Assembly (NCBI GenBank): GCA_945643635.1
Contig: CALZFC010000030.1
Span: 4,268,001 to 4,332,000 of the forward strand
DNA from: Allodiplogaster sudhausi
Lineage: Eukaryota; Nematoda; Chromadorea; Rhabditida; Diplogasteridae
Direction: 5' to 3'
Length of the DNA: 64,000 nt
A program made the translations under genes and the position numbers. The notes beneath the pieces were generated by a model. That model searched no databases. It was not told the DNA's origin and saw only the letters and a program-made list of their open reading frames with translations. Positions 18,601 through 54,189 of this stretch are shown piece after piece (the first letter of the stretch is position 1; each line of letters starts with the position of its first letter).

Positions 18601-21600
18601 ATATATTTTAACATAAAAAAATTCAGTATGGCGACTGCAAAGCCGCGCGCGCTTGGCTCACGCAACACAGCGCCTCCCGTGAAGAGCTCGCTCTCACTCA
18701 TCTTCGAGACATTGCCGAGCATGTCATGGCGACGTCACCAAGCACTGTGTTCGTTGGTCTTTTTAGAATATTCTAATTATTAGTTTTAGAATAACCTGAT
18801 TACTATTTTTTCATAGAATATTCTAATTATGATTTTTAGAATATTATAAAATTATACCTTTATTTAGACATTTATATTTGAACGTATATAGGTATTTTAG
18901 AAAGGTTTTATTTTTATTTTAGTATATTTTTCACTACGAATTCTGACATTTAGTGTTTTGGCATGGAACGACATGCTCAAGACGTTCCCGCCCTCAGTCA
19001 TCGCTGACCTTCGCCTTGGCGACCTTGTTGAACCTGTTGTTTGGGACTACTCCGAAGGAATTGTTACACTAAATGGTCTAGTATTTAGATTATACTAATT
19101 TAAAATATTTTAGGAATCTTTCTACACTTTGGTTTAAAAAATTTCTTATTTTTGTGATTCTCCATTTTAGAAAGAAACACGTCATTTGTTGCCAGTATTA
19201 TACTGTATATTTTAGATCAGCAGTGGGATGCGCTGGCAGCGAACTTTCCAACGGCTTGGGCATCCTCTGCATTCAAGGTGCTTCATTTAATCACTGACGA
19301 TCGTAATATGGAATATTCTAACTTTAAATAAAGGAAGATGGTAATCTCTTTATTCATATATCTATTAGTAGGAGAATGGACAGAATAAGTTTTTAGGGAG
19401 CAAACTTTCCATCGGCACAATACATCGACATTCGGCATTACGAAACAAATAATCGAGCGTGGATTGAAGTCAAAAAGGTACCTAGTAAATTACGATTTAA
19501 ATAATGTTAACATTGAAAAAAACTGTGGATATATGAACTTTTGGATGCTAGTTTTTTTTTAGAATAATAAAGAATATAAAATCAATTAATTTTTTTAAGA
19601 AGCGTATTCAGACATAATAAAAACATTCACCATGTCCATTTGCAGCAGCAAGAGAGCAAGTTCAAGGACGGCATCAGAGGCATTATCATCACGGGGTGGC
19701 AAAGGTGAACGATATGTAAAATTATTTTTTTAATTATTTAAAAATGTTTTGAGTAGTTATTTATTATGTTCCTTGTAATTTCTTCTCAAACAGGACTGTA
19801 TATGGTTGTTGTTTTGCCCATATTTATGATTCCTATTTATCATTGTAATAGTGCTATAATTGCGCGTTCTTTTAATAGCCGGACAAAATTTTAGAATTTG
19901 CTAAATTGGATATTTCCTTTTTTATCTACGAAAATCTGTTTAGATACGATCATATGACCGCACTCTGCGAGACTTTGCCAGTTGGCACACCTTCCATGGT
20001 ACTGAACATCGAGACGGCGTTGGCGGGAGGAAAAATGGTATGTCGAAAATCTTTTGGAGTATTCTAATTGGAATATTCTATTCGATGAAAAAAATATGTT
20101 ATAAAAATGGAATAGTTCGTTTTCTTTTCAAATACTCATGATCCCCTTCCCGGTGGTTTTCAGTTCACCCGCTCTGATTTAGTCTGTATACTATTCAAAG
20201 CCTGTGATGTGGAGGCAGCAGCAGGTCAAAAATTTGAGATTTTAGGAATGCAGTAAAGGTGTCTGCAATCATTGAAATTATTTGTAATAATGTGTCATTT
20301 TTAAATTCATTGGCATTACAGTTTTTATAGAGTGATATAATCAATATTTATTTGAGGAGCAAGAAACAATCAGACGACGCGCCGCAGCCAAGCTGAACTG
20401 CACGTCCTTCTCTGTCGGAAACCTTAATGTCATCAGCACTCGCTGCGGCTTTCCAGGTTTATTCCGATTAGAATATTTTGGTTAGAATATTCCAGGATGT
20501 GACCCATTCCTTTATGCCGATTAGAACATTCAAACTTTGAATATACCATCAACTTTAATATAGTAGTTGTAGGTCACAAAGTAAAAAAAAAGTCTTTGTT
20601 ATGTCAGGTTTCCAAGCGTACCTCACCTTCCAACAGTCGGTGCGTTCGACAGTCGAGTACATTGAAGCGGAGCTTGCGAAGTTAACATTACTTAATGTTC
20701 AATTAAATAAAATCCTTTCTTCCATTTATTGATTGCTCGCATGCAATATTAGCGTTGGCTAAACAGAAAATTCACCCACTTTTATCATAGTATCCTGTTC
20801 TTTGAATGTACACTTTTTTAAACGGATTTGACAGCATAACATTGGATGATCCGTGTTTGATGTAAAAAAATGTTTTTTAAGTATATTTCAAATTGTATTA
20901 TCAGGGACCACCAACTGCTGGGCTGGATGAGCCCGTACTCGCGTGCTCATAGCTACGGCCAGAACTGGTACCTCAGACAGATCGAGCCAAAGCTGGCTGG
21001 CTTCTCAGCCTCACTTCAGCGTACCATCAGCGAGCTGAGGTATAATTCTTATTAGAATATGCTAATTATATTCGTGTGAATATTCCAATTAAAAAAAGGA
21101 ATCAAAGCTGTAAGAAGCCAGGCCGCCTAAAGCCTGACTCCTCATCTAGATCTAATAATGTGTAATGACCGACCTGTTAATATGCCTCCTGGCTTGCGGT
21201 CGGTGCTCGAACCAGCCGTCCTGCAGTAGTGCAGAGCCCCTCTCTGACGCGCCCTCTCCCGAGGGGGCGGAGCGTAGAGAGGGAGAGAGAGTGTGCGGCC
21301 GTTAGGCGGCCGAGAGAGTGTATGTGGATGCACGGGTTTCAACATGCCCCCTTTCGGAAGCTTGTCGATCCCCTGGTCGACGGTCGAAACGACGCGACTT
21401 TGCGTTTCGGTAACTCCGTGACTGATGTTGTGGTTAAATATGCGGTTATGGTGTGGGGAGTATATGCTTATGCACATGAGAGACCGGCCGAGCAGTTTGG
21501 ATGGTGTTAGGTTTTTTTTTTCTGCTCAGCTCGGCTCTTTCGTCTGCCTTAGTCACGTCTGTAGCGCGCAGGCGGCTGCCTGTGGCGCGTCGATCTTCGG

Positions 21601-24600
21601 ACTGGATGTCCGTCTGTCGTTGTCGGCATCTCGAGTGGGGTGCTCGACTTCTTGGTCTTCGGAGCTCGTTTTCTCGCTGTGCTCGACGAAGCATTGTCTT
21701 CTGGTTCGGCTTCCTCTGGCTCTTCTTCGCTTTCCTTCTCACTCTCTTGGATGTATTCTGGATTCTTGTTCTTCTTCTTGGGCTCGTAGGTGCGCACATT
21801 ATCCTTGTGGTGAAACTCGATCCTTCCGTCTCCTCGGATCGAGATTCGCGGCCCTTGGACGTCGAGCACTTCGAAGGGCCCGTGAAGTCTCGGCGCCAGC
21901 TTGTTCTTTGGCGGTTGCCGCTTCACCAGGACACGATCACCGGTCATGACCTGTCGTTTCGCCACATTGTGCTGCTGCTGATAGAGACGCTCTTGTTCTA
22001 GCTCGGCTACATTGAGCTTCTCTTTGACCAGCTTCCCGACGCTCTGCATGTTTGCCTTGAGCTTGTCTGTGTACGAGGGTTCCATGAAGAACTGGCAGTT
22101 CCAGGGATCGTTGCCATTATCTTCCGGAATCCTTGGTGTTCTGCCGAAGAGTGCTTCGAATGGTGATGTACCGATTGAACGGTTTGGAAGCGAGTTTATT
22201 GCGAAGATGACGAGCGCGAGGTGGATGTCCCAGTCGTCCTGCGTCTCGTTCACGTGGCTCGCCAGGATTTCTTCGATCTGACGATTGAGACGCTCTACCA
22301 ACCCATTGGTGGCATGGTGATACGGGGTCGATGTTGCATGGTCTATCTTCATGGTTCCGAGGAATTCTTGGAATTCGCCGGCGAGGAAGTTCGACCCCCG
22401 GTCGGTGACTATCATCTTCGGCGCTCCGTGCTTGCCGATCACTTCTTCCATGAAGGCGCGTTCGACGGAGGTAGCGCGCTGGTCCTTGAGTGGGACGGCG
22501 ATGGCGAACCTGGTCAGCGCGTCACGCATGGAGAGGATGTATCGGTTGCCGTCGATTGTCTGGGGCAGGGGACCCAGAATGTCGACGTGGAGACGCTCGA
22601 AGGGGAGACTGGGCTCCGGGAAGGTGCCAAGAGGCTCCTTCGTCTCTTCGTGGGAGAACGTCTTTCTCTTCCTGCACTTCAGGCAGAGAGTGACTGCTTC
22701 TTCCACGTCCTTCTTCATTTCCGGCCAGTTTTATCGTCGCCGGATGCACAAGAGAGTGCGGTCGATACCAGCATGCGATGCTAGCATCGGGGATGTGAGG
22801 AAGTGTTCGACGATTTGTTTCATGATGATCGTTGCCAATCTGGAGGTTGTAGTCGACTTCGGCAATGAAGTGAAACGGGGTGCCGTTTGCGGCGAATGCC
22901 CCGCGTGCTCGTTCGTCGAGTGAGCCTCCTTTGTCGATGTTTTGGCGAACGAAAGTCTGATGATGGTAATAGCTGTTCTTCGTCCGGTGTACAGCGCGAG
23001 AGCGCTAAGTCGAAGATGTTTTCCTTGCCGAGACGAAGTTTGGTCGTGACATTGGACAGCACGAAGTAAATATAAAGATAACTAGCTACTTTCTAAATGC
23101 ATGATATACTATAACGAAAATACATTTACGAGAAAATTAAGAATAACAATAAGCTAAACTTTTGATTGAAATATATTGGGTAAGCCTTATTAATGAGAGA
23201 TATAGAGATAGAGAGAGAAATAATGAAAGAAAGAAGGAAAGAAAGAAAGGAAGAGAGAAAGATATGACTAGACCGAGATTGTTGACGATTTTTTCTGTGC
23301 CAGCTGGACTGGCTGGAATGCAAATGTTGCGTGCGCCGTCTTATCTGACAGGCGCACTGAGCCTAATATCATCAATCTTGACCTAGTTGGAGGCAGCGGG
23401 CAGCAGCGAGAGTAAATGAGACGAGAAAGATATAAGATACATATGAGATAGAGTAAGTTAGATAGAGAAAGAGAGAAAATGTGGCTCTCTGTTGTTTACT
23501 CTGTGTGCCTCTAATGCCTGCTGGCTGATAGTCTAATGAGAGATTCGATCGGCTGCGACCGGGTACTCTCGGCCATAGGCAATTAATCAAGGCCAGCGGC
23601 GTAGAGATAGAGAGAGAGAGAATGCATCAGAGAAAGAAACAACGAGAGATAATAGAGAGAGATATAGAGAAATATACATACATATAGAAATTTGTTAGAC
23701 ATATATATAAATAAAAGAGTATGAGAGAGGGATAGGATACCAGCACTGTGAACAAAACAAGAAAAAACAAATACCCGAAACAGTGCTGGTTGCACTTCTA
23801 CAAAACGGCTTAGGCGGAACGAGCATACACATTTCTCTAAAGGTACTCCAGCCAGCGTGGAATGAACGTCACACTTTTACCTCTATTTTAGCTATCCTTC
23901 TAATCGTATCCATCAAAGCTATTGGTAGAGAGATTGTCCGCTATCACCAAAATAAATCCCAGTTGCTAACTCCGTTTGCCTATCCTAGTTTGGACTATAG
24001 AGAGACTTACATATGAATTCGAGGGCGGTAAGCGCCATCCCAGGCTACCGCCTTGCCTAGCCACTGTAGGAGGAGAAGAACTACAGTGGATACAGCTACC
24101 TTGGGGGCCCTCGTTTGCTCTATGGGGATTCTAGGATGGAGGTGCCCAGCCTTGCAGCTCCCCGTGCTGCAAGTTACTATCCACTTGGGTCACTCTCAAT
24201 AGGTGGGACGTGCTACCACCGGCAAAGAACGCTTACCTTATAACCAAATAAACGGAGTCATTCCAAAACACGAAACATGCTACTGGGGGGTGACTAGTTA
24301 ACTCAGACAATCTAACCTAGAACCTAGGAGTGTGAGTTCACCGGCTAGAGGCTCAAGAGTTCACTAGATTATGTTAGTCCTTGTGAACAAGTATAGTTTA
24401 AATATTAAAATCTTTGAATGAAATAATTTTTGGTAAAATTCCCTCTTGCCCCTGCGGCAAGAGTTCGACCCGGGACCTCCATGTAAGAAGCCAGGCCGCC
24501 TAAAGCCTGACTCCTCATCTAGATCTAATAATGTGTAATGACCGACCTGTTAATATGCCTCCTGGCTTGCGGTCGGTGCTCGAACCAGCCGTCCTGCAGT

Positions 24601-25013
24601 AGTGCAGAGCCCCTCTCTGACGCGCCCTCTCCCGAGGGGGCGGAGCGTAGAGAGGGAGAGAGAGTGTGCGGCCGTTAGGCGGCCGAGAGAGTGTATGTGG
24701 ATGCACGGGTTTCAACAAAGCATTATAAAGAATTTTCAGGATACAGTTGTAGTTGATATTTTATTGGTTTATTCTAGCCAAGACTTTTTTTTTAAATAAA
24801 ATATTTACAATAGTTTATACGAAATATTGCTTTTACAGATCATCGCTCAAGACGCTGTTCTTTGAGAACACGATCGATGAGATGGTCTTCTTGTCCATCG
24901 GCCAACTCGACGCCAGAATTCAAGGAATGCTCGACGATCTCAGAGAGATGTCGAAGAAACGCTCATGGCCCAGCCGACACTTTTCGATCAAGAAGCCCAA
25001 AGGTGACCTCTAA
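15641..25013 (+). CDS. Hexosaminidase D-like glycoside hydrolase (GH20)
   Basis: Predicted to remove terminal N-acetylhexosamine from glycans. About 566 residues from 18 exons: 15641-15703, 15849-15965, 16102-16210, 17635-17746, 17923-18031, 18128-18184, 18344-18409, 18627-18748, 18954-19075, 19216-19277, 19397-19477, 19646-19704, 19944-20037, about 20164-20208, about 20357-20456, 20608-20680, 20905-21039, 24839-25013. Family words match HEXD: HFDLKGAPPRVPY, EWEDMFPY, IPLVQTFGHLEW, HIGADEAF (catalytic Asp-Glu near residues 207-208), WNDMLK, ITGWQRYDH, GWMSPYSR. The chain starts with a hydrophobic segment (MLLLGVVAFGIFQICQ) like a signal peptide, which is unusual because human HEXD is described as nucleocytoplasmic. 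The junction between exons 14 and 15 is uncertain in phase: the GTGGAG donor near 20209 keeps frame, while the better-looking donor at 20225 does not. Introns host a Helitron-like element and an LTR retrotransposon. The frame is otherwise intact. Confidence 0.9.
16281..16360. repeat. Three consecutive GC-rich perfect hairpins
   Basis: Hairpin 1 pairs AGCGTGCC with GGCACGCT. Hairpin 2 pairs GGGCC with GGCCC around TTC. Hairpin 3 pairs ACCACCGGGGC with GCCCCGGTGGT around a 4-base loop. All lie within 80 bases of an otherwise AT-rich intron and probably belong to the terminus of the Helitron-like element. Confidence 0.85.
16455..16515. repeat. Short tandem repeat, about 18 bp unit
   Basis: Three consecutive units of GCATCCGGACGCAAGCG with one-base variation plus a partial fourth, inside the Helitron-like element. 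Confidence 0.85.
21109..21344 (-). repeat. LTR (element 3' end)
   Basis: 236 bp, starts TGTAAGAAGCC and ends GGGTTTCAACA on the plus strand. By eye it is identical to the copy at 24482-24717. Confidence 0.92.
21345..21354 (-). other. Polypurine tract
   Basis: On the minus strand GAAAGGGGGCA lies directly before the downstream LTR, in the position expected for the plus-strand DNA primer of an LTR element. Confidence 0.6.
21549..22718 (-). pseudogene. Retrotransposon integrase (partial pol)
   Basis: A 389-codon open frame begins at the CC half of an HHCC zinc finger (CLKC at residues 13-16). It then carries the catalytic core with the D,D,E pattern: HVDILGPL, VTDRGSNF, and NGLVERLNRQ. A GPFEVLD chromodomain-like/GPY segment follows near residue 283, then an acidic charged tail. 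The pattern matches Ty3/gypsy integrases. Directly upstream, the expected finger sequence (around 22720-22800) continues in frame except for a TAA near 22731, and further upstream the frame is disrupted. It acts to insert element DNA into the genome, but this copy probably cannot act alone. Confidence 0.85.
22719..24460. other. LTR element interior without recognisable genes
   Basis: 22820-23060 has fragments of a coding-like sequence in shifting minus-strand frames, possibly decayed pol or gag. 23165-23740 is GA-rich and resembles the host microsatellite DNA seen at 1-15 kb. 24020-24460 is unique leader-like sequence next to the primer-binding site. Confidence 0.5.
24463..24481 (-). other. 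Primer-binding site complementary to a tRNA 3' end
   Basis: Immediately inside the LTR, the minus strand reads TGGAGGTCCCGGGTCGAAC. It begins with TGG (pairs with CCA) and continues into a sequence matching the T-arm of a tRNA. The tRNA species is not determined. Confidence 0.75.
24482..24717 (-). repeat. LTR (element 5' end)
   Basis: 236 bp, same sequence as 21109-21344. On the minus strand this is the upstream LTR, because the primer-binding site abuts it on the inside. Confidence 0.92.
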
Positions 25014-26159
25014 GAGGCTCTGTCATAGATTTTTAGATTATTCCTCTTTAAAGTGGGTCTAGGAATATTCTATTCCGTAAGATTTAAATTTTTTAAAGAT
25101 TATCTAAAACATTTTAGTTTTGTTATCATTGCTGACCTCCTTGTTGATCATTCCGTTTTGCTCAAACATTTGTTGATCTACGAAGCCCCTCTGTTAAACA
25201 GCGTGACCCAAAGATCGTGTACAGATGGAATCTTTTTCCATTTATCTGTTCTGTAGATTAACATGCCTAATATGTTAATTTTGGCCCACTCCGAGTGAAG
25301 TACTTTTTTTAAATAGTAGGTTTGCTCGAATTCAACGGCCTGCTTTCTCTGTGATATCCTTGTGATTTAGGAACTTGTTTCTGCGGGTGCACGTACACTC
25401 TCGAATTTTCAGGATATTTGTGCACTCCTGTTTTTTTTTACGTCCATAGCTTTCTTTCAAGCGTATGGTATATTCTAAAGTCTTGGCACTGTTTTAATAT
25501 TCCAAAGTCTGCTTGGCAGTTTTGGAATATTCCAGATTCTTGGCCTGTAAGTCTTCTATTCAACGCAGTGTATTTTTTCTCTCCGTTTTCGTTTTGGAAT
25601 TCAAAAATTTCCTTGTGCGGCCACTTTCATTGTTACGGTTTGCGTGTGATATTTCGAGATGGTTTATTTTATCGTTTAATTGCACCATGTGCACAGTGCC
25701 GAGAAATATAGTTTGTTTCTGAAATAAATAAATAAGTACTTTTTGTCAATGTAAGCATATTTTTCATATAGGAAAGAAATCCGGATTTTACAGTTGATGG
25801 AGGAAATGTAACAACTGTTCCATTAATATCACAGGGGCTTCCATTGTAACAACACAATAAAAACGAGGGGAATAGCAGGTTTGTTAATTTGGCTCGAAAA
25901 TGTTACAATAGGAATGTATTATTAACTATTTGTCTCACATACGTTTGTAGTACGTTAAAGGACCCAAAACCTCAATCTTGAATTCGCGCCTTTTTGCCTG
26001 ACCGAAGCGCGAGAACATGTGCTTTGGAGAAGAGACTACAAAAGTCAGTAAACTTCAAATTGGTTACGATTGAGTTTCGTGCATTTTCTTATCAGAAACA
26101 AACTTGGGGGGAATATATACTGAATTTGATGATAAGGCTGCAGGAGAAGATTCTGCTGA
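25014..26159. other. 3' flank of the hexosaminidase gene, gene-free
   Basis: AT-rich sequence with GAATATTC words near 25060 and 25520 and AATAAA-like signals near 25720-25735 and 25855. No coding exon seen before the foldback element. Confidence 0.5.
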
Positions 26160-27851
26160 TTAAGAGATCCTGTCCGTATCGTTTGATCAAGGCCTGCCCT
26201 AGGAATTTTTTTCGAATTTCTTCACCAAAATTGAATACAGCATACAACTCGACGTGGTGAACAAAATAGGCTATATTTCAATGTTGAAATAAATTTTCCG
26301 CGCGAGACCCAGTACAGTAATCTTTTAAATTACATTGGTCATAAGTCGCTTCAAACTTATTATTAGACAACCATCGAGCTATCATTGGATAGCTGATTGA
26401 ACGGGCTTCAATTTTCATGTTGATGATGTTTTCATAAAATTTGAATTTGGCCCAAAAAGACGGCCCTAAACATTTTCGAAAGTGGTTTTTGGCCAAATTA
26501 GGCATTTTACATTCATTTCCACAAAACCGCTCCTGCATATTCTTAAACTACGTGAAATTTGCTACAACATATGTCTCTTTCAAAAGAATTAAAGGTCTCT
26601 CTCTTAGTTTCCCAAATGCTTGAACATGATCCGGTGTTAACTGTAACACCGTGCAAGCGCATTCTTCGATTCATAACTGCGCTCAATGTCAATATTACAA
26701 AATCGTAAGTATATCATCTAAGAGCTCTCACGGAGATCTTCAAATGTTACATACATACTTTTATTGAAAAGTTTCAATTTATATGGGAAATTTCGTTCTG
26801 TACAATTAGAAGTCTTAAAAATCTACTTTAAAAACATTTTCGCCTGTCGAAACATACATCAGAAGAAAGAGGATGAAATTTGCTACAAGATTAACCCTTT
26901 CAATGGAATTCCATGCATACGATCTTTTGTTATAAGCCAAGAGAGTAGGATAACAAGGCCTTTTGGAAAAACTTTAGAAAAAAGGAATTGGAATATTCTA
27001 ATTCGAATAACCTAAAATGTAAATTCTTGGGCGAAATGACAGCGACGCTACTGGCACTAGGTTTATGATTTATAACAAAAGATCGTATGCATGGAATTCC
27101 ATTGAAATGGGTTCATCTTGTAATAAATTTCATCCTCTTTCTTATGATGTATGTTTCGACAGGCGAAAATGTTTTTAAAGTAGTTTTTTAAGCCTTCTAA
27201 TTGTTCATAACGAAATTTCCCATATAAATTGAAACTTTTCAATAAAATAATGTATGGAACATTTGAAGATCTCCGTGAGAGCTCTTAGATGATATACTTA
27301 CGATTTTGTAATATTGCCATTGAGCGCAGTTATGGATCGAAGAATGCGCTCGCACGGCGTTACAGTTAACACCGGATCATGTTCAAGCGTTTGGGAAACT
27401 AAGAGAGAGACCTTTAATTCTTTTGAAAGAGGCATATGTTGTAGCAAATTTCACGTAGTTTAAGAATACGCAGGAGCGGTTTTGTGGAAATGAATGTAAA
27501 ATGCCTAATTTGGCCAAAAACCACTTTCGAAAATGTTTAGGGCCGTCTTTTTGGGCCAAATTCAAATTTTATGAAAACATCATCAACATGAAAATTGAAG
27601 CCCGTTCAATCAGCTATCCAATGATAGCTCGATGGTTGTCTAATAATAAGTTTGAAGCGACTTATGACTAATGTAATTTAAAAGATTACTGTACTGGGTG
27701 TCGCGCGGAAATTTTTTTTCAACATTGAAATATAGCCTATTGTGTTCCCCACGTCGAGTTGTATACTGTATTCAATTTTGGTGAAGAAATTAGAAAAAAA
27801 AACCTAGGGCAGGTAGGGCCCTGCTCGAGTCTTACTGACATCCTCTCTTAA
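26160..27851. mobile_element. TTAA-flanked foldback element, copy 1
   Basis: About 1.68 kb made of two long inverted arms (roughly 26195-27010 and 27060-27810) around a short centre. The arms match almost base for base over hundreds of bases. TTAA lies at both edges (26160-26163 and 27848-27851), and the ends read inward as GAGA...TGTC.GTA on both sides. No transposase frame exists; the open frames in the arms are mirror copies of each other. TTAA targets are typical of piggyBac-type transposases, but the CCC terminus of classical piggyBac is absent. Right edge coincides with a gene's stop codon. Confidence 0.8.
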
Positions 27852-28420
27852 CACGTCGTCCATCCTCCATCCACACAGAGCGTATGCCCTGTGGTCATTG
27901 AAGCGCCGTCTGAAGAGAGCAGAAACATGACCGATCGGACGACGTCTTCGAGCTCTTAAAGTGGAATACTCTAATTGTCATTATAAGTTATCTGAAAGTA
28001 GAATACCCTAATTGTGAGATGCCATTCCGGTGAAAGACAATTTGGTACATCAAAATCTCATATTCCAGATGCCAGCTCACCACAAAATCGTCCCAACGGA
28101 GTTTGATCTAGCAACAACGCCGATTTCGCCGGATCGCTCCAAAGCTGTAATATCGTTAAAAATATTCGTAAATACAAGCGAAAAAATAATTTATTAATTG
28201 AATAATAAGAAAAGGTGTATTTGCTCTCATACAGCACGTCCGAGGTCAGTGAAGACGACGGTGGGGTTGACGGTGTTGAGACGAATGCCGTACGCGCCGA
28301 GCTCGAGCGCCATCACTCGCGTCGCCATGTCGAGAGCAGCTTTGGAGACGCCTGATTAGAGGAGAGAGTGAGCGACAGAGAGAGAGAGAGTGAGCGACAG
28401 AGAGAGAGAGAGAGAGAGAC

Positions 28421-28453
<33 letters not shown>

Positions 28454-29305
28454 ACACAATGACAGAGAGTCTCCCTAACAATAGGCTAGGTGATTGTGGA
28501 GCGGCCGCCGTGACGCCTGACTCGAGATGTTGACAACGGCTCCTTTGATTCCGTGCTGACGCATCGAATTGGTCACGATCTGTGAGAGCAGGATGGGACC
28601 GCGGCAGTTGACTGCGAGCTGACTGCAATGAACGTACAAATTAGAATATTCGAAGATTAGAATATTCTAAGTACTTCAGACTTAAAATATTCAGAGATTA
28701 GATAATTCTGAATGATTCAAACTTAGACCGTTCAAAATTTGAATATTCTAAAATTGAAAAAAGAATCAATTTTGGAATATTTCTGGTAATTTGAGTTAAT
28801 TTTGACATGCTCACGTTTCAAACGACTCCTCCGTCAGCTGGCCGACTGGCTGCAGGTCGGCAATGCCGGCGTTGTTGACGAGTGCATCGAAGGGCAAATG
28901 AGGCTCTAGCAGCTCGGTCAGAGCCGAAAGGGAAGTGGTGACGTCACCAATGTAGTGAACGAACCGTTCGAATTCTGTAATGTTTAAGAAAAAATATTAT
29001 TCCATTAATTTTATGATTTTTGTTTGTAGTATGTACGTAAGAAACGCTAAACTAATTGCTAGGTTACATTGCTTGGTTGTAGATCGTCTTCCCCTTTGAG
29101 CACATCAAGACCGACGACATGAGCGCCAGCATCGAGTAGTGTCTGCGCAATTGCGCGACCGATTCCTGTTAAATGAGAATTAGAATAGTTAAAAAAATTT
29201 CTTTGAATAAACCTTATGTCTTTTTTTACTTTCTAAGATAATCTCACCTTTACTTCCGCCAGTAACGAGAATCTTCTTTCCGGTGAAGTCGAATGTGGAG
29301 GTCAT
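27848..29305 (-). CDS. Short-chain dehydrogenase/reductase, DCXR / L-xylulose reductase type (copy 1)
   Basis: NADP(H)-dependent carbonyl reductase of the DCXR group (C. elegans DHS-21 class), which interconverts L-xylulose and xylitol. Exons on the minus strand: 29305-29248, 29165-about 29068, 28974-28815, 28622-28480, 28351-28233, 28144-28081, 27954-27848; about 247 residues. Visible motifs: TGGSKGIGR cofactor loop, VNNAG, NISSQ catalytic Ser, LAYCVSK with catalytic Tyr and Lys, and end DGGWTTC. The second donor is a problem: the canonical GT after 29068 gives the same 98-bp exon as the paralog but breaks phase into the third exon. A GC donor at 29072-29071 would restore phase. Either splicing is non-canonical or the copy has a frameshift. 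A GA microsatellite fills the intron at 28352-28479. The stop codon lies at the edge of a foldback transposon. Confidence 0.85.
28372..28453. repeat. (GA)n tract in an SDR intron
   Basis: Interrupted GAGAGA and GAGACA units fill most of the 128-bp intron between the exon ending with the catalytic Tyr codon and the next. In the paralog the equivalent intron has a shorter GA tract at about 31987-32065. Confidence 0.9.
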
Positions 29306-31314: not shown

Positions 31315-34085
31315 TTAGCATGTCGTCCATCCTCCATCTATGGGAAGCGAATGGCCGGTAGTCATTGATGCGCCGTCGGAGGACAACAGGAACATGATCG
31401 GCCGGACGACCTCTTCGATCTCTGAATTAATAGGATTACTGTATCTTTATAAGGTTCGTTTATTGATTGAGGCGTTTTAATCAATTTATACATTTTAAAA
31501 CTCGTTGCATATATGTAGTTGGCGCTAGGCTTAACAAAGTTAAGAATTGTGTCAAACAAGAAAAATCCTGCCTTCTCTTATGTTAGACTACTCTTGTTCT
31601 TTGCACTTTCATCAATCGTATACGACCTCTTTTCATAGTCTCACTCTCTCTCTGTCTCCCTTTAGCACTTTCTGTCTCAACCACTCTTACCGCAGAATCG
31701 GCCAAGTGGAACGTGATCAAGCAGCTGCGCTGCGGTCGCAGGGTCGCTCCATTTCTGAAGGACAGGAGAAATTAGCATATTCCATTTAGGATACTCTCTA
31801 CAATAGATGTTTGGTATATTTGAAAAAAAATTATAGACCTCAAGTCCTAATAACACTTACCGCGCGGCCCATGTCAGTGAAAACGACGGTGGGATTGACA
31901 GAGTTTATGCGAATGCCATACTTGCCGAGCTCGAGCGCCATCACACGCATGGCCATGTCAAGCGCGGCTTTTGAAGCACCTGAGAAATTGAAAGAGAGAT
32001 AGAGAAAGATGGGGTAGAGAGAGAGAGAGAGAGAAATAAAGAGACAGAATGAGACAGTGTGTGAGAGAGAGAGAGAAAGATCGAATAGCTTCTCTATTCT
32101 TTAGCGTTTATATGTCTAGGCAAAACAAATAAATACGTAGATAGGTAATTTAATTATTTCCTGAAAACTTACAATATGCGAGATGATTGGGAAGTGGCTT
32201 GAGCGACGCCTGGCTCGAGACGTTCACCACGACGCCACTGATGCCGTTGGCGCGCATTGCATTCGTCACGATCTGCGTGAGCAGGACAGCGCCGCGGAAA
32301 TTGACCATGAACGTGCTGAAAAAAGACTAGTTCGAATAATCAAATATTCGAATAATCCAATAATATAATATTTGAATTATAGAATATTCGAATAATCTAA
32401 CATTCGGAAAATATAATATCCCTACACTATTCCAATTACTGCATTCTTTTCAAGCATTTGCTCTTTTGCTCTTCGTTATGGACTTTGTTTATCATTATTC
32501 ATCTCAATTTGACCCCACCGATGCGTTCTACTTCTCAACATACGTTTTTATGATACTGCAATTGATGCATAGGAATGGGGTACTAGCTAGTCATTTCAAG
32601 GTGAACTCTCGTGCTGTAATGGTGTGGTTGACAATTGATCATGGCCGATTTGCATGGGAGTGGCTCTTCTCTGCCATTTCTCTTTACAGGGAACCATGTA
32701 ACCTACTCGCAATATTTCGAATAAGCTAATAATATTTCTTTGTCCTATGCAAAATACTGATGAATCTCGCCTTTCAATAGAGTCCTCGGTCAGCTCGCCG
32801 ACTGGCTGGAGATCGGCCATGCCGGCGTTGTTCACGAGCGCGTCGAATGGCAGATGCGGCTTTAGAAGCTCGCCCAGGTTGGACAGCGACGCAGTGACGT
32901 CACCGGCAAGTGCCGTAATCGATCCCTTCGAAGAGGCGGCCTGAAAATAGTCTGATTATTGGAATATTCTAATTCCGCTTGAAATGATGTAAAAGAGAGA
33001 GCTTTTCGCTTTCTGCACTCGTCGTTTTCTTCGCACGCCTATTTACACACACACATACACAAACTCTTTTTTCACGCTTACGAAGAATTGCTCGTTGGTT
33101 GCTAGAGAAGATGTCTTGAGAAACACGCCTTGAAATACTCTAATAGCTCTTGAGAATTTTGTCTATCTGTTTGAGCCGACTTCATGATGGACGTCGGCAG
33201 AGAGAGAGTGTGTGAGAACGAGAGAGACAGAGAAGCAGAGACATCAGTCGCCGGTTCCACAGACGACATCTGCGGCAACGTTCAATTCTCGTTTCTGGCC
33301 ATCATCGAAGACGTCCCATCCTCGAGACCTCTCCCCACATCTCACCAGCTTGCTGCGATGAGTCCTGTTGAGTTCTCAGTTCAGCAGAGAGACAAGAAGA
33401 CAAACGGAGAAAGAAGTAGTGAGATGCCGAAGTCTCAAGTCGATGAGAAAGAGCGATAGAGAGAATGAGAGGACGGAATTTGTAAGAAGAATCAAAATGA
33501 ACATTTTGAAGAGATATGAAAAGTTGAGTACAAGGCTTCTTCAATTCAAGAATCGCCAAAAAGAGATGTGGAAGAGCTGAAAGGGTGATTCAGAGGCATT
33601 AATGGTGATTCGTGAGGAGTCGAGAGAGATTGTGCCTTGACAGCAGTTTTCAGTCCATTTTGGATATTCTTTTATTTATTTTTCTTTTAGGAAGTTGCCT
33701 TTGATTCTTTTTTGGGAATGAATGCGAAAGTGGTTTAATAAATATTCTTCATTACCTCTTTAACGAGCAACTCGAGATCGTCCTTGCTGCGCGCCATTGC
33801 AACGACATCTGCGCCAGCATCGGCGAGCATCAGTGCCATTTTGCGGCCGATTCCTATTTTTTTGGAATATTCGAAATATTTTTTTGGAATATTCGTATTA
33901 TTTTTTTGGAATACTCGAAATATTTTTTAAACACTCGAAATATTATTAGGAATATTCGGAAAAAAACGCCTTTATTCTTTGGAATATTCCAAATGAAAGA
34001 TAGAATATACGGTAGTTCCAATCTGACCTTTGCTGGTGCCGGTGACGAGAACCTTTTTTCCGCTGAAGTCGTACGAGGCGGACAT
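31315..34085 (-). CDS. Short-chain dehydrogenase/reductase, DCXR / L-xylulose reductase type (copy 2)
   Basis: Intact paralog of the neighbouring SDR, 252 residues. Exons: 34085-34028, 33853-33756, 32940-32771, 32315-32173, 31979-31861, 31754-31691, 31421-31315; lengths 58, 98, 170, 143, 119, 64 and 107. Six of the seven match copy 1 if its second exon ends at 29068, and the other is 160 bp in copy 1. Motifs: TGTSKGIGR (residues 15-23), NNAG (89-92), catalytic Ser143, Tyr156 and Lys160, terminus DGGWTTC. The third exon ends AG|GCGAGA, a GC donor, and the join gives the correct frame. As a tetrameric carbonyl reductase of the DCXR type it would act on L-xylulose and dicarbonyls; substrate is inferred from family only. 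Introns carry GAATATTC clusters. Confidence 0.92.
33860..34010. repeat. Local tandem cluster of the GAATATTC word in an intron
   Basis: Within the first SDR copy 2 intron the unit TTTTTTTGGAATATTCG and close variants (GGAATACTCG, AACACTCG) recur about six times in 130 bases. It is the clearest small tandem expansion of the palindrome in the window. Confidence 0.8.
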
Positions 34086-34547
34086 GACTTCGCTCGCTAT
34101 CGAGTATACCAAGTTCGAGTAGTGTTCGTTGATACGAAAGTGACTGCTCGAGTTGCCGGCACGGCCGACTTATATCCTGCCATGGGCAAAGGGGCGGAGC
34201 ACCCCAGCGCGGGGCCGGTTCATTCCCTCCTAATGGTAAGGAATCTCTCGTTTTCATGTAACAATATGAAAACGCAGGCTGCAAGAGAAGTGATTTAAGA
34301 TAAAGATGATCAAGAGGACTAAAGAAATGGAGAGAGCTATTGGGAAGTGAGAGTGTGTGTTAAAGAAGAGACACAGACTGCGAAACAAGGTAGATGAAAT
34401 ATTAGGCGATAGCGGCCGCTGAACCTGGCGTGGGGGTAAAGGAAGCGCACCAAGCAGATGACTCTTGTGATCACTCAACGTTCTCTTTCTCTCTCTCTCT
34501 CTTTTTCTCTCTTACTCTCTCTCTCCCTCTTCTCTCTCACTCTCTCA

Positions 34548-44800: not shown

Positions 44801-47800
44801 TCTTATTTATTTTAAAAACAAAACTTCTAATACATATGTAGTTATTGCCATATTTTCACCAATACGTTAGCGACCACTTCATCTATGTTTTCAATTTCTA
44901 GCATCACGACCGATGTCTCGACATGCATCATTAGCATATTTAATGGATTAAGTTATTCGAAAATTGCTATAAAACAGGGACCGAGTCAACTTCGTCCTCA
45001 ATTAGCACCGCTACGGCCACTCCCACAACTACGACAACGACCGGAGCATCCAGTGAGAAAATGAAATGAGAATATTCTAGCTAGAAAAGAAATTAGAATA
45101 TGCTAATTCAAAAAAGAATTAGAATATGCTAGTTCAAAAATAGGAACATGCTAGTTCAAAAAGAAATTCGAATATTCGAGTTGAAAAAAATCAGAATAGG
45201 TTAGTTCAAAAATAAATTAGAATATACTATTAAAAAGGAAATAAGAATATGCTAGTTGGAGAACAAAGTAGAATATAAAAAATTTTAGGAAATCGTTTAG
45301 AAAATTTTTTTTCCTTCTAGACTGCGGTGGATATATCGAGAGCAATGGGCATTTTTATGAGAACAAGTGCGTCGTGGCAGACGCAGCAGCCACTTGCGAG
45401 TCGTCGCCCGGCAACGAAACCGTCTGCCATTGCTCGACGAATCGAACTGGCGAGTTCTGCGAATATCGTGAGTCGACAAAAAAGGAAAAAAATAAAAAAT
45501 AGAAAAGAAAATCATGATACGCTTCTTTTAGCACTATCCACGATTGCTGTCCTCGGCACAAGCTATGGAGAAGATGGCATGAATATCATTAGACAGGTTT
45601 ATCTGTTAGGGAAAAAATATTCTTTTTACCGTCTATTTTATTTACCAATTTTGATCTAATCGTTTTTTTTAAAGAACCATTCTAACTTAGCTGACAAATA
45701 AATAGATTTTAGGCGGTAGATCAATCGGGCAGCAACTCTGCGGCAATGAGTATCTTGGTGCCATCCATGCTGGCCAGATACTCGCCTGAGCAACTCTAAG
45801 CCTTCTCATGGGATGTATCGGATATGTTTCAGTTCTTCAGTTTCGAGAGGAAAGAGATTGCGCTTAGGTTCGTAGATCAATTTACCGTAAACCTTCTCCT
45901 TGACTCCCTTTTTCTTCTTCATTTAAATATCTTTAAATAGCTCGCTCCACCGCACGTACGACCCTTCGATGGGAAACTGCTTCGCTTTCAATTACTTTAA
46001 CGGAAGTTTCTTCTATCAGTTGAGAATGACAGGGAGTCGAGGAGGTCTGTTTTCCTTGTAAATCTCTTTTTTTCCACTAAATAACCATGGAATTATCAAA
46101 ACTAAACAGGAATCTTTACGGCTCTGACCATCAATCAATCTGAATACTTTCCATGGACGGACACTGCTTCCATGCGTATCTTTGTGCATTCCACGGATTC
46201 CATCATTCTTGCGGAGAGTCCGGGGTGCGGCAGGCTTGACGAATTTATTATTTATATTATGATTAAAAAAAATTTAAATTCAGAGTCGTGGTGCAACCGT
46301 TGAGGAGAAATTTTGGCCTAGTTATTTCGAGAGTTAGCTGAATTTTATGAAATCCTTCATTCATATTTCTTAGGGATAGTATTTAGTGCATGGATGGAGT
46401 TTTAAAATACAGTATAATTACGCTGAAGGAGTGACATTTGCAGAATGATTATAATCTCTTGTCAACCACGTCAAGAGATGTCTGCGCTCATTCCGATGGC
46501 GTGCTTACAAATGGCGGCCGAGCTCACTCGTACTACCCGGGCGCCTTCACACTCGAGGTCTTCTCACCTCATTTCAACAACAAAAGCATTCCCAGAAATG
46601 CTTCTTCAATACAAGAATAGCTGTTTTTATGTGACATTATTCGTATAAATGACCAGAGCTATGAAAGTGAGACAAACGCAGGGCTGCTACCGCTCGTGCT
46701 ACCAAGACGTGCTGCAAGCGGAGTGCGGCTGCATGGATGCGACTTATCAGCGGCCTACTGAGTCGACCGCTTGCGGCATCAGTAAATGTTAGGAATGACT
46801 TGGACTATTTGTTTACTTTGAAGAATTGGAACTAATCTGTTGCTTATAAGCGAACTGTCCTAATGTGGGCCCATAATTCGAATAATGAAAAAAACAATCT
46901 AAAATAGTTAAATTTAAAGCGTTTATTATGTATGAAGTTGACGTTCGGCCAATAATAACATCCCTGTGCTCATCCCACAATCGGCCTGACACAACGATAA
47001 ATTATTAATTGTTAATTATGTATGTACATAATGATCGTCCTAAATTCGAAAAAAAAAAAAAGCTTATTTATTATGCATTATATACAGTATCCTGCATACT
47101 CTCTACGCTGTCCACGCGTGGAGAGAACTACGCGGCATGGCCAGAGTGCTCGTCAGGATGTCGTCAACCGTGTCACTTCTCCGAGTACAATATTGCTCTG
47201 TCGAAAGGAGCTCTTTCGGTTAATTTTTTAATATATATTTTTTTTAATTAAAAAAAATAAATTTATGCTCTCTACGCTGTCCACGCGTGGAGAGAACTAC
47301 GCGGCATGGCCAGAGTGCTCGTCAGGATGTCGTCAACCGTGTCACTTCTCCGAGTACAATATTGCTCTGTCGAAAGGAGCTCTTTCGGTTAATTTTTTAG
47401 TATATATTTTTTTTAATTGAAAAAAATAAATTTAATCATATGAAAAATATATTTAAAAATTAAAAAAAAAAAAACAATAAAAATAAAGTAATTTTTTCCT
47501 AAATTATGATTACATTTGCTCAGGCTTCGAGCAAATACGGGTGATGACGTAATCCTCGTGAGCATCGTCTTTGCTCTCCACGAGAACACGGCTACGGGTG
47601 ATGACGTAATCCTCGTGAGCATCGTCTTTGCTCTCCACGAGAACACGCTCGTCCACGTAGAAGAGCGAGAAATGACGGTAGAGCCAAAGTGCCTAAGATT
47701 GGGTTTTAGTTGTTATTTTAGTATTTTAATTTTTTATTTTATTATTGAATTTTACAAATTAATTTGTTTATAATCAATCATATAACTAAAAAAGAGAATA

Positions 47801-50919: not shown

Positions 50920-51636
50920 TATGACGCGATTTGCGAGAGAATCAAAAAGAAGCTTAGTTCCCGGGGACCCGGCCAAAATCGACCAGCTTAGATTTTCTTT
51001 AAAAGTTCTTAATAGGTGCTTTCTGATATGAGGAATCGATTGGAAGTGGTCTAAGGATCGGAAAATGCGGTTTTCGTTAGCTATAAAGGCTTGAAATATG
51101 GGGCTCGCCGCGCTGGTAGGCGAGTTGGATGCACGTCTGGGATCACTGCGGAGCGCTTTGTTGAGATATATAAACGAAAATTTACATCTCAATAGCCAAG
51201 ATATTGCTCTAAACAATAAAAAAAGAAAATTTTGAAAATTTCCAACTCTAAAGTATTTATAGACGTTGAAGTTTGAGAGGGTGCAGAAAAATTATTTCTC
51301 ATTTTACCAGAACCAAACCTACATATTTGTATAGAGCATGAAAAGAGCTTTCGAATGCACTATAGGAGTTATAAAACTTATGAAGTCTTTGATGTTTCCT
51401 GATCGATTATTTCGGCGAGGCTGTACAAATCAGCACGTCCGCGGATTAAAAAAGGTGCTTAAAAATCTTTTCACACGTCCAAACATAAACTAGAAGAAAG
51501 AGCGTGAAATTTGCTATAAGTTGACCTATTTCATTAGAAATAAAAACATTAGGATTTTTTGTTATCAGTTAAAAGCATGGGGCATCTGCTTGTAACAATT
51601 ATTCAAAGAAAGGCCCCAAAAAATTCCTCTGCCTAG
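50920..51636. repeat. Degenerate foldback remnants
   Basis: 50924-51080 matches the arms of the repeat at 42750-43155. 51470-51540 resembles the foldback element interior at 26840-26900 (CGTCCAAACATAAACTAGAAG versus CGTCGAAACATACATCAGAAG type). No coding exon recognised. Confidence 0.5.
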
Positions 51637-52490: not shown

Positions 52491-54189
52491 TTAAGAGAGC
52501 CTGTCCGTATCGTTTGATCAAGGCCTGCCCTAGGAATTTTTTTTCGAATTTCTTCACCAAAATTGTATACAGTATACAACTCGACGTGGTGAACAAAATA
52601 GGCTATATTTCAATGTTGAAATAAATTTTCCGCGCGAGACCCAGTACAGTAATCTTTTAAATTACATTGGTCATAAGTCGCTTCAAACTTATTATTAGAC
52701 AACCATCGAGCTATCATTGGATAGCTGATTAAACGGGCTTTAATTTTCATGTTGATGATGTTTTCATAAAATTTGAATTTGGCCCTAAAAGACGGCCCTA
52801 AACATTTTCGAAAGTGTTTTTTGGCCAAATTATGCATTTTACATTCATTTCCACAAAACCGCTCCTGCATATTCTTAAACTACGTGAAATTTGCTACAAC
52901 ATATGTCTCTTTCAAAAGAATTAAAGGTCTCTCTCTTAGTTTCCCAAACGCTTGAACATGATCCGGTGTTAACTGTAACACCGTGCAAGCGCATTCTTCG
53001 ATTCATAACTGCGCTCAATGTCAATATTACAAAATCGTAAGTATATCATCTAAGAGCTCTCACGGAGATTTTCAAATGTTACATACATACTTTTATTGAA
53101 AAGTTTCAATTTATATGGGAAATTTCGTTCTGTACAATTAGAAGGCTTAAAAATCTACTTTAAAAACATTTTCGCCTGTCGAAACATACATCAAAAGAAA
53201 TAGGATGAAATTTGCTACAAGATGAACCCTTTCAATGGAATTCCATGCATACGATCTTTTGTTATAAGCCAAGAGAGTAGGATAACAAGGCCTTTTGGAA
53301 AAACTTTAGAAAAAAGTAATTGGAATATTCTAATTCGAATAACCTAAAATGTAAATTCTTGGGCGAAATGACAGCGACGCGACTGGCACTAGGTTTATGA
53401 TTTATAACAAAAGATCGTATGCATGGAATTCCATTGAAAGGGGTTCATCTTGTAATAAATTTCATCCTCTTTCTTATGATGTATGTTTCGACAGGCGAAA
53501 ATGTTTTTAAAGTAGTTTTTTAAGCCTTCTAATTGTTCATAACGAAATTTCCCATATAAATTGAAACTTTTCAATAAAATAATGTATGGAACATTTGAAG
53601 ATCTCCGTGAGAGCTCTTTGATGATATACTTACTATTTTGTAATATTGCCATTGAGCGCAGTTATGGATCGAAGAATGCGCTTGCACGGTGTTACAGTTA
53701 ACACCGGATCATGTTCAAGCGTTTGGGAAACTAAGAGAGAGACCTTTAATTCTTTTGAAAGAGAGATATGTTGTAGCAAATTTCACGTAGTTTAAGAATA
53801 CGCAGGAGCGGTTTTGTGGAAATGAATGTAAAATGCATAATTTGGCCAAAAACCACATTCGAAAATGTTTAGGGCCGTCTTTTAGCGCCAAATTCAAATT
53901 TTATGAAAACATCATCAACATAACACTTAAAGCCCCTTCAATCAGCTATCCAATGATAGCTCGATGGTTGTCTAATAATAAGTTTGAAGCGACTTATGAC
54001 TAATCTAATTTAAAAGATTACTGTACTGGGTGTCGCGCGGAAATTTTTTTTCAACATTGAAATATAGCCTATTGTGTTCCCCACGTCGAGTTGTATACTG
54101 TATTCAATTTTGGTGAAGAAATTAGAAAAAAAAACCTAGGGCAGGCTTTAATAGGGCCCTGCTCGAGTCTTACTGACATCCTCTCTTAA
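52491..54189. mobile_element. TTAA-flanked foldback element, copy 2
   Basis: About 1.69 kb, same family and orientation as 26160-27851, with long inverted arms and high similarity along the full length. TTAA at 52491-52494 and 54186-54189. It retains about 8 more bases than copy 1 near the right end (GCTTTAATAGGGCCC versus GTAGGGCCC). No transposase. Confidence 0.8.

Follow-up and report, generated by a model that had tools for sequence, protein, structure and literature searches.

Does a foldback transposon whose border coincides with the stop codon of a gene supply that stop codon, or did it enter one that the gene already possessed? This question is raised by a locus in the window, the 64,000-nucleotide stretch of the Allodiplogaster sudhausi genome analyzed here, where an inverted-repeat element directly adjoins the end of an SDR gene.

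The element and its family

The element spans positions 26160-27851 of the window (1692 bp) and carries a TTAA at either border. The left TTAA (26160..26163), placed by the sequence and by the empty-site alignment described below, has to its left the sequence that originally flanked the SDR gene on the 3′ side, and the right TTAA (27848..27851, minus strand) is made up of the third base (T) of the final Cys codon, TGT, and the SDR stop codon TAA. The body between them (26164..27847) has GAG...CTC termini and long inverted repeats, with a left arm of 708 nt (26193..26900, plus strand) that is 96% complementary to a right arm of 708 nt (27106..27813, minus strand). Between 26895 and 27110, an inner pair of 41-nt arms (26895-26935 and 27070-27110) encloses a 134-nt centre. 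The ends of the element family read TTAAGAGAGNMTGTC. No Pfam domain was found in the four ORFs of at least 60 aa that lie wholly inside the element, and for this reason it is taken as non-autonomous. With long inverted repeats, no coding capacity and many near-identical copies with target duplication, it has the structure of a foldback element or MITE. A scan of a viral collection with one 25-mer of an arm, which possibly did not extend to records of the source genome, yielded no match, and the window gave no Rfam match at gathering thresholds.

The source genome comprises 352 Mb in 382 contigs, and the search for the element returned 1870 candidates, of which 40 were scored, giving 102 matches. 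From 38 fetched stretches and the window, 39 full-length copies of 1661-1710 bp were taken, excluding the partial copies L045 and L046, two pieces in L033 and one in L014. TTAA stands at both ends of all 39 full-length copies examined, a count drawn from matches reaching the query ends and thus from a sample favouring intact ends; the surviving end of the truncated copy L046 is TTAT. For 32 of the 39 there is another copy at 98% identity or more. A second copy in the window (52491..54189, plus strand) has TTAA on both sides and different flanks, and is 97.6% identical end to end to the element at the SDR gene. It is also 99.9% identical to L011, again with different flanks, and such near-identical copies in different surroundings point to recent transposition. 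At 51443..51568 lies a diverged fragment that resembles the element's inner arm at 73-75% identity.

So nearly perfect a palindrome could in principle also be a local inverted duplication, or a palindrome produced in assembly, and no transposon at all. This explanation is vanishingly improbable, given that 39 full-length copies of nearly equal length with TTAA borders occur in different places and that a homologous site on another contig is empty. Moreover, the two window copies have 30 arm-specific differences in common, so both derive from one element and not from two local palindromes.

When 200 bases on either side of each of the 39 copies were compared, only L034 and L035 matched on both sides, a pair which we read as a segment duplication. 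The other flank matches (L009, L014, L033, L018/L031 and L021) are neighbouring or related elements; in L009 and L033, adjoining elements have one TTAA in common. The 30-base left flank of the second window copy is common to the partial copy L045. In the flanks of L018, L031 and L037, sequences like the ends of other TTAAGAGAG families adjoin or lie near the element copies, which suggests that related TTAA elements form a clan, united by a common end motif.

Within one copy, the left and right arms are identical at a fraction of 0.90-0.97. Gene conversion from arm to arm was considered and rejected, the arms mostly evolving apart: 307 changes are private to one arm versus 33 that are identical on both, and of the latter 28 occur in the diverged copy L009b and 5 in L027. 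Three both-arm differences between the two window copies lie within ~100 bases, a hint of a short gene-conversion tract only.

Relationship to known elements

In the accessible text of the sources, the Kolobok superfamily is characterized by TTAA duplication and 5′-RR...YY-3′ termini (PMC9587614, PMC6004289). The present family has the 4-bp TTAA duplication (39/39 copies, with the single word CTAA at the empty site), and behind the TTAA the left terminus is GA in 39/39 copies and the right one in 38/39, the exception being GT in L033. Kolobok MITEs such as the Xenopus T2-MITE are likewise described as non-autonomous, with TTAA duplication and RR...YY termini, here GA...TC (PMC9587614, PMC6004289, as far as their accessible text goes); unlike the present element with its arms of ~745 bp, T2-MITE has the termini AGGRR, and neither a Kolobok transposase nor an autonomous partner came to light among the sequences covered here. 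We therefore classify the element tentatively as a long-TIR MITE that is Kolobok-like, TTAA and GA...TC fitting Kolobok better than piggyBac.

The TTAA target is also that of piggyBac, whose termini are CCY, in contrast to the GA at 77 of the 78 ends here. The piggyBac transposase profile PF13843 gave 0 hits against the genome, and the control was likewise silent. The name of another nematode repeat, PALTTAA2, joins palindrome and TTAA. This repeat of C. elegans and C. briggsae, annotated as PALTTAA2/PiggyBac in the accessible part of PMC1431705, is the nearest named one, judged by its name. Tm1 Mutator/Foldback of Meloidogyne is a further foldback-like nematode element with inverted-repeat termini, but the available text on it gives 9-bp target duplications (PMC3169594). 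A description of the present element family was not found among the open-licence papers listed. Tc4 of C. elegans has the fold-back architecture as well and, at ~1.6 kb with ~770-bp repeats, is similar in size. Membership in the Tc4 family was rejected, since Tc4, according to the accessible text of PMC11071193, targets CTNAG and duplicates TNA, and the word duplicated here is TTAA in the joined context GTTAAT.

The SDR gene and its stop codon

The L-xylulose-reductase-like SDR gene (27848..29305, minus strand) is complete, with 7 exons (29305-29248, 29165-29073, 28974-28815, 28622-28480, 28351-28233, 28144-28081 and 27954-27848) encoding 247 aa. The intron between exons 2 and 3 is modelled as GC-AG and the five remaining ones as GT-AG. 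The best 12 of the listed relatives are L-xylulose reductases, 9 of them from nematodes and 1 from an insect, including one of Cylicocyclus with 55% identity. Cylicocyclus and Auanema belong to Nematoda according to a taxonomy look-up, and the other genera concerned are nematodes as well. This range of relatives by itself makes a nematode host probable. The best solved structure match is L-xylulose reductase 1pr9 (E 4.4e-60, residues 7-247). In the alignment, Y151 and K155 are invariant, and Y and K are the active-site residues of SDR enzymes. By its full-length similarity and this Y/K pair, the gene fits an SDR of the L-xylulose reductase (DCXR) kind.

The translation ends in GGWTTC, followed by TAA, and the last column of the alignment is common to all 17 homologues, chosen from 120 listed. 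On this evidence the stop codon is native and was not created by the transposon. The first-pass annotation had placed the right-hand TTAA on the last four bases of the gene's TGT TAA and had held the coding sequence to be untouched; its coordinates (27848-27851) prove exact, and the frame of 247 aa is complete with the stop where the 17 aligned homologues have it. In a tandem SDR paralogue, the frame that contains the last exon (31318..31446, minus strand) likewise encodes GGWTTC, with TGC TAA at its end; no element is found there. The SDR gene's original 3′ flank (25880..26159, minus strand, outer limit set by eye), now 1.7 kb farther downstream, starts with TCAGCAGAATCTTCT as it does at the empty sites.

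An empty homologous site

Among 14 matches to the last 35 SDR residues, five are close; two of these lie on C30 (the contig of the window) and three on contig C75. C75:29001-45000 is collinear in blocks with window positions 33774-14253, in opposite orientation and at 82-88% identity; C75 has an additional tandem SDR gene in between, at 34165. These C75 blocks appear to be either the other, deeply diverged haplotype or an old duplicate in the same assembly. When the window flanks were joined without the element, a single C75 alignment ran from the gene across the junction and 75 bases into the left flank; a further block lay beyond it. The empty site, C75:37793-37810, reads GGATGGACGACGTGC TAA TCAGCAGAATCTTCT, and the window reads GGATGGACGACGTGT TAA, the element with its TTAA and TCAGCAGAATCTTCT, so that the element-free join is GGATGGACGACGTGT TAA TCAGCAGAATCTTCT with the target context GTTAAT. 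The element was not found in C75:29001-47000. At the extra SDR gene (C75:34165-34269) the same 3′ flank follows TGC TAA and is also empty, the upstream SDR gene ends in TGC TAA on both C30 and C75, and an SDR relative on contig C40 ends in TGC TAG.

Since the same exon, stop codon and 3′ flank are present on C75 without the element, the stop is native and the target was duplicated, the word occurring once when empty (as CTAA) and twice when filled (as TTAA). The stop codon is thus not located elsewhere in the related locus, which would have spoken against the first reading, and the view of TTAA as a duplicated target is borne out. The expected empty site was found, with one nuance: the gene end directly adjoins what lies left of 26160 in the window, and the single target between them is CTAA instead of TTAA. 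The empty state was seen at one locus of the element; around the second window copy, the alignment to C75:6001-14000 does not bridge the insertion site.

In the right flank of L023, ~14 bases from the TTAA of the copy, 14-16 bases repeat the end of the SDR gene exactly. A target common to L023 and the SDR site was rejected, as no SDR frame and no BLAST match to the window SDR were found in the 400-base right flank of L023, and the likeness, noticed post hoc, is probably due to chance.

Other features of the window were observed in the same comparison or beside it. A 3.6-kb LTR element at 21109-24717 has two identical 236-bp ends (TG...CA), AAGC on either side and, judged by eye only, an integrase-like frame (21552-22730, minus strand); the C75 alignment skips 21061-24715, so this element is also a recent insertion. 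The region of ~25160-25395, beyond a plus-strand frame with its stop near 25013, is nearly identical in C75 amid surroundings that differ far more, and the Rfam search at gathering thresholds matched nothing there. Two tandem duplications, each of two perfect or near-perfect copies, were also seen, one of 169 bp at 47099-47434 and one of 57 bp at 47536-47647.

Insertion and its timing

Compared with its 8 closest copies, the element at the SDR gene has 8 private substitutions among 1692 sites. This is far below the 12-18% divergence of the C30/C75 blocks, and the insertion is therefore placed after the two segments parted, with the empty state ancestral. Taken together, the sequence comparisons make it very probable that a non-autonomous long-TIR MITE or foldback element integrated at a TTAA made up of the last base of the Cys codon and the stop codon of the SDR gene, with duplication of the target.

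CTAA is found at both empty relatives with the same flank, so the TTAA most likely arose by a synonymous C-to-T change. A silent change of TGC to TGT in the last Cys codon would have created the TTAA before the insertion, and is unremarkable because the same last exon (107 bases) contains 4 other substitutions between C75 and the window. A palindromic, transposase-dependent element of a recently mobile family would then have entered the TTAA at the SDR end and duplicated it. With TAA inside the target word, the duplication would restore the stop codon, and the insertion would have spared the protein and replaced only the 3′ UTR.

Alternatively, the element may have entered CTAA itself, and pairing or repair with its own TTAA ends may have turned both copies of the target into TTAA, recoding TGC to TGT. 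A study of piggyBac is reportedly titled as showing mutations at non-canonical sites. In the accessible text of PMC3983033, 93% of piggyBac integrations fall at TTAA and CTAA is among the remainder, a precedent that agrees with the CTAA of both relatives having the same 3′ flank. This precedent, however, comes from piggyBac and not from the present element family, both ends must have resolved to TTAA, and with 4 other substitutions in the exon the C/T difference needs no special cause. We consider insertion into CTAA unlikely, and by our judgement the silent change, which is strongly favoured over it, is most likely.

Predicted fold of the 3′ UTR

Folded as RNA, the element is predicted to pair 1496 of its 1692 bases across the arms near register, with a longest uninterrupted helix of 236 bp and -1248 kcal/mol, and the inner 1081 nt are predicted to reach -771 kcal/mol. 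In transcripts through both arms, a hairpin several hundred base pairs long would be present. Counted on the transcript side from the start of the TTAA, a possible variant poly(A) signal, ATTAAA, occurs at 434, in the first arm, and AATAAA at 1087, together with the weaker variants TATAAA (778 and 1069), AATGAA (1335) and AATATA (1575); the next AATAAA is located in the old flank, at 2184. The arm-to-arm hairpin would be missing from any transcript that stops in the first arm. dsRNA from the SDR 3′ UTR is therefore possible on condition that transcription passes both arms.

The near-complete duplex predicted for the element would also be compatible with a hairpin 3′ UTR that has been put to use, read-through dsRNA silencing the SDR gene or the element family. 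Such a use appears distinctly unlikely, as the insertion is recent, there is no sign of selection for the hairpin, and ATTAAA in the first arm could stop the transcript before the hairpin is complete. Very unlikely is a reading in which CTAA was overwritten by the TTAA ends of the element, with silent recoding and a restored stop, and the SDR gene expresses a family-wide hairpin 3′ UTR; if it were true, the mRNA of the enzyme would be a source of siRNA against the whole element family.

Frequency and significance

Extrapolated from the 366 TTAA words in the window, the whole genome has ~2 million. For a gene number of perhaps 20,000, typical proportions give ~2,500-3,000 genes with a T before TAA. 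By this estimate such gene ends make up ~0.1% of the TTAA targets, and a hit at a stop codon is expected about once by chance provided that the copies of the family number in the hundreds (there are 1870 candidates), which makes the present case striking but not extraordinary. The preferred account, insertion at a TTAA that was already present, is an ordinary event of a known kind that is unusually well resolved. The locus provides a clean natural example of how TTAA-targeting elements settle harmlessly at gene ends, because TTAA contains TAA and the duplication regenerates the stop codon. With filled and empty sites in one assembly, the 3′ UTR, poly(A) choice and small RNAs of the two versions of the gene could be compared directly.
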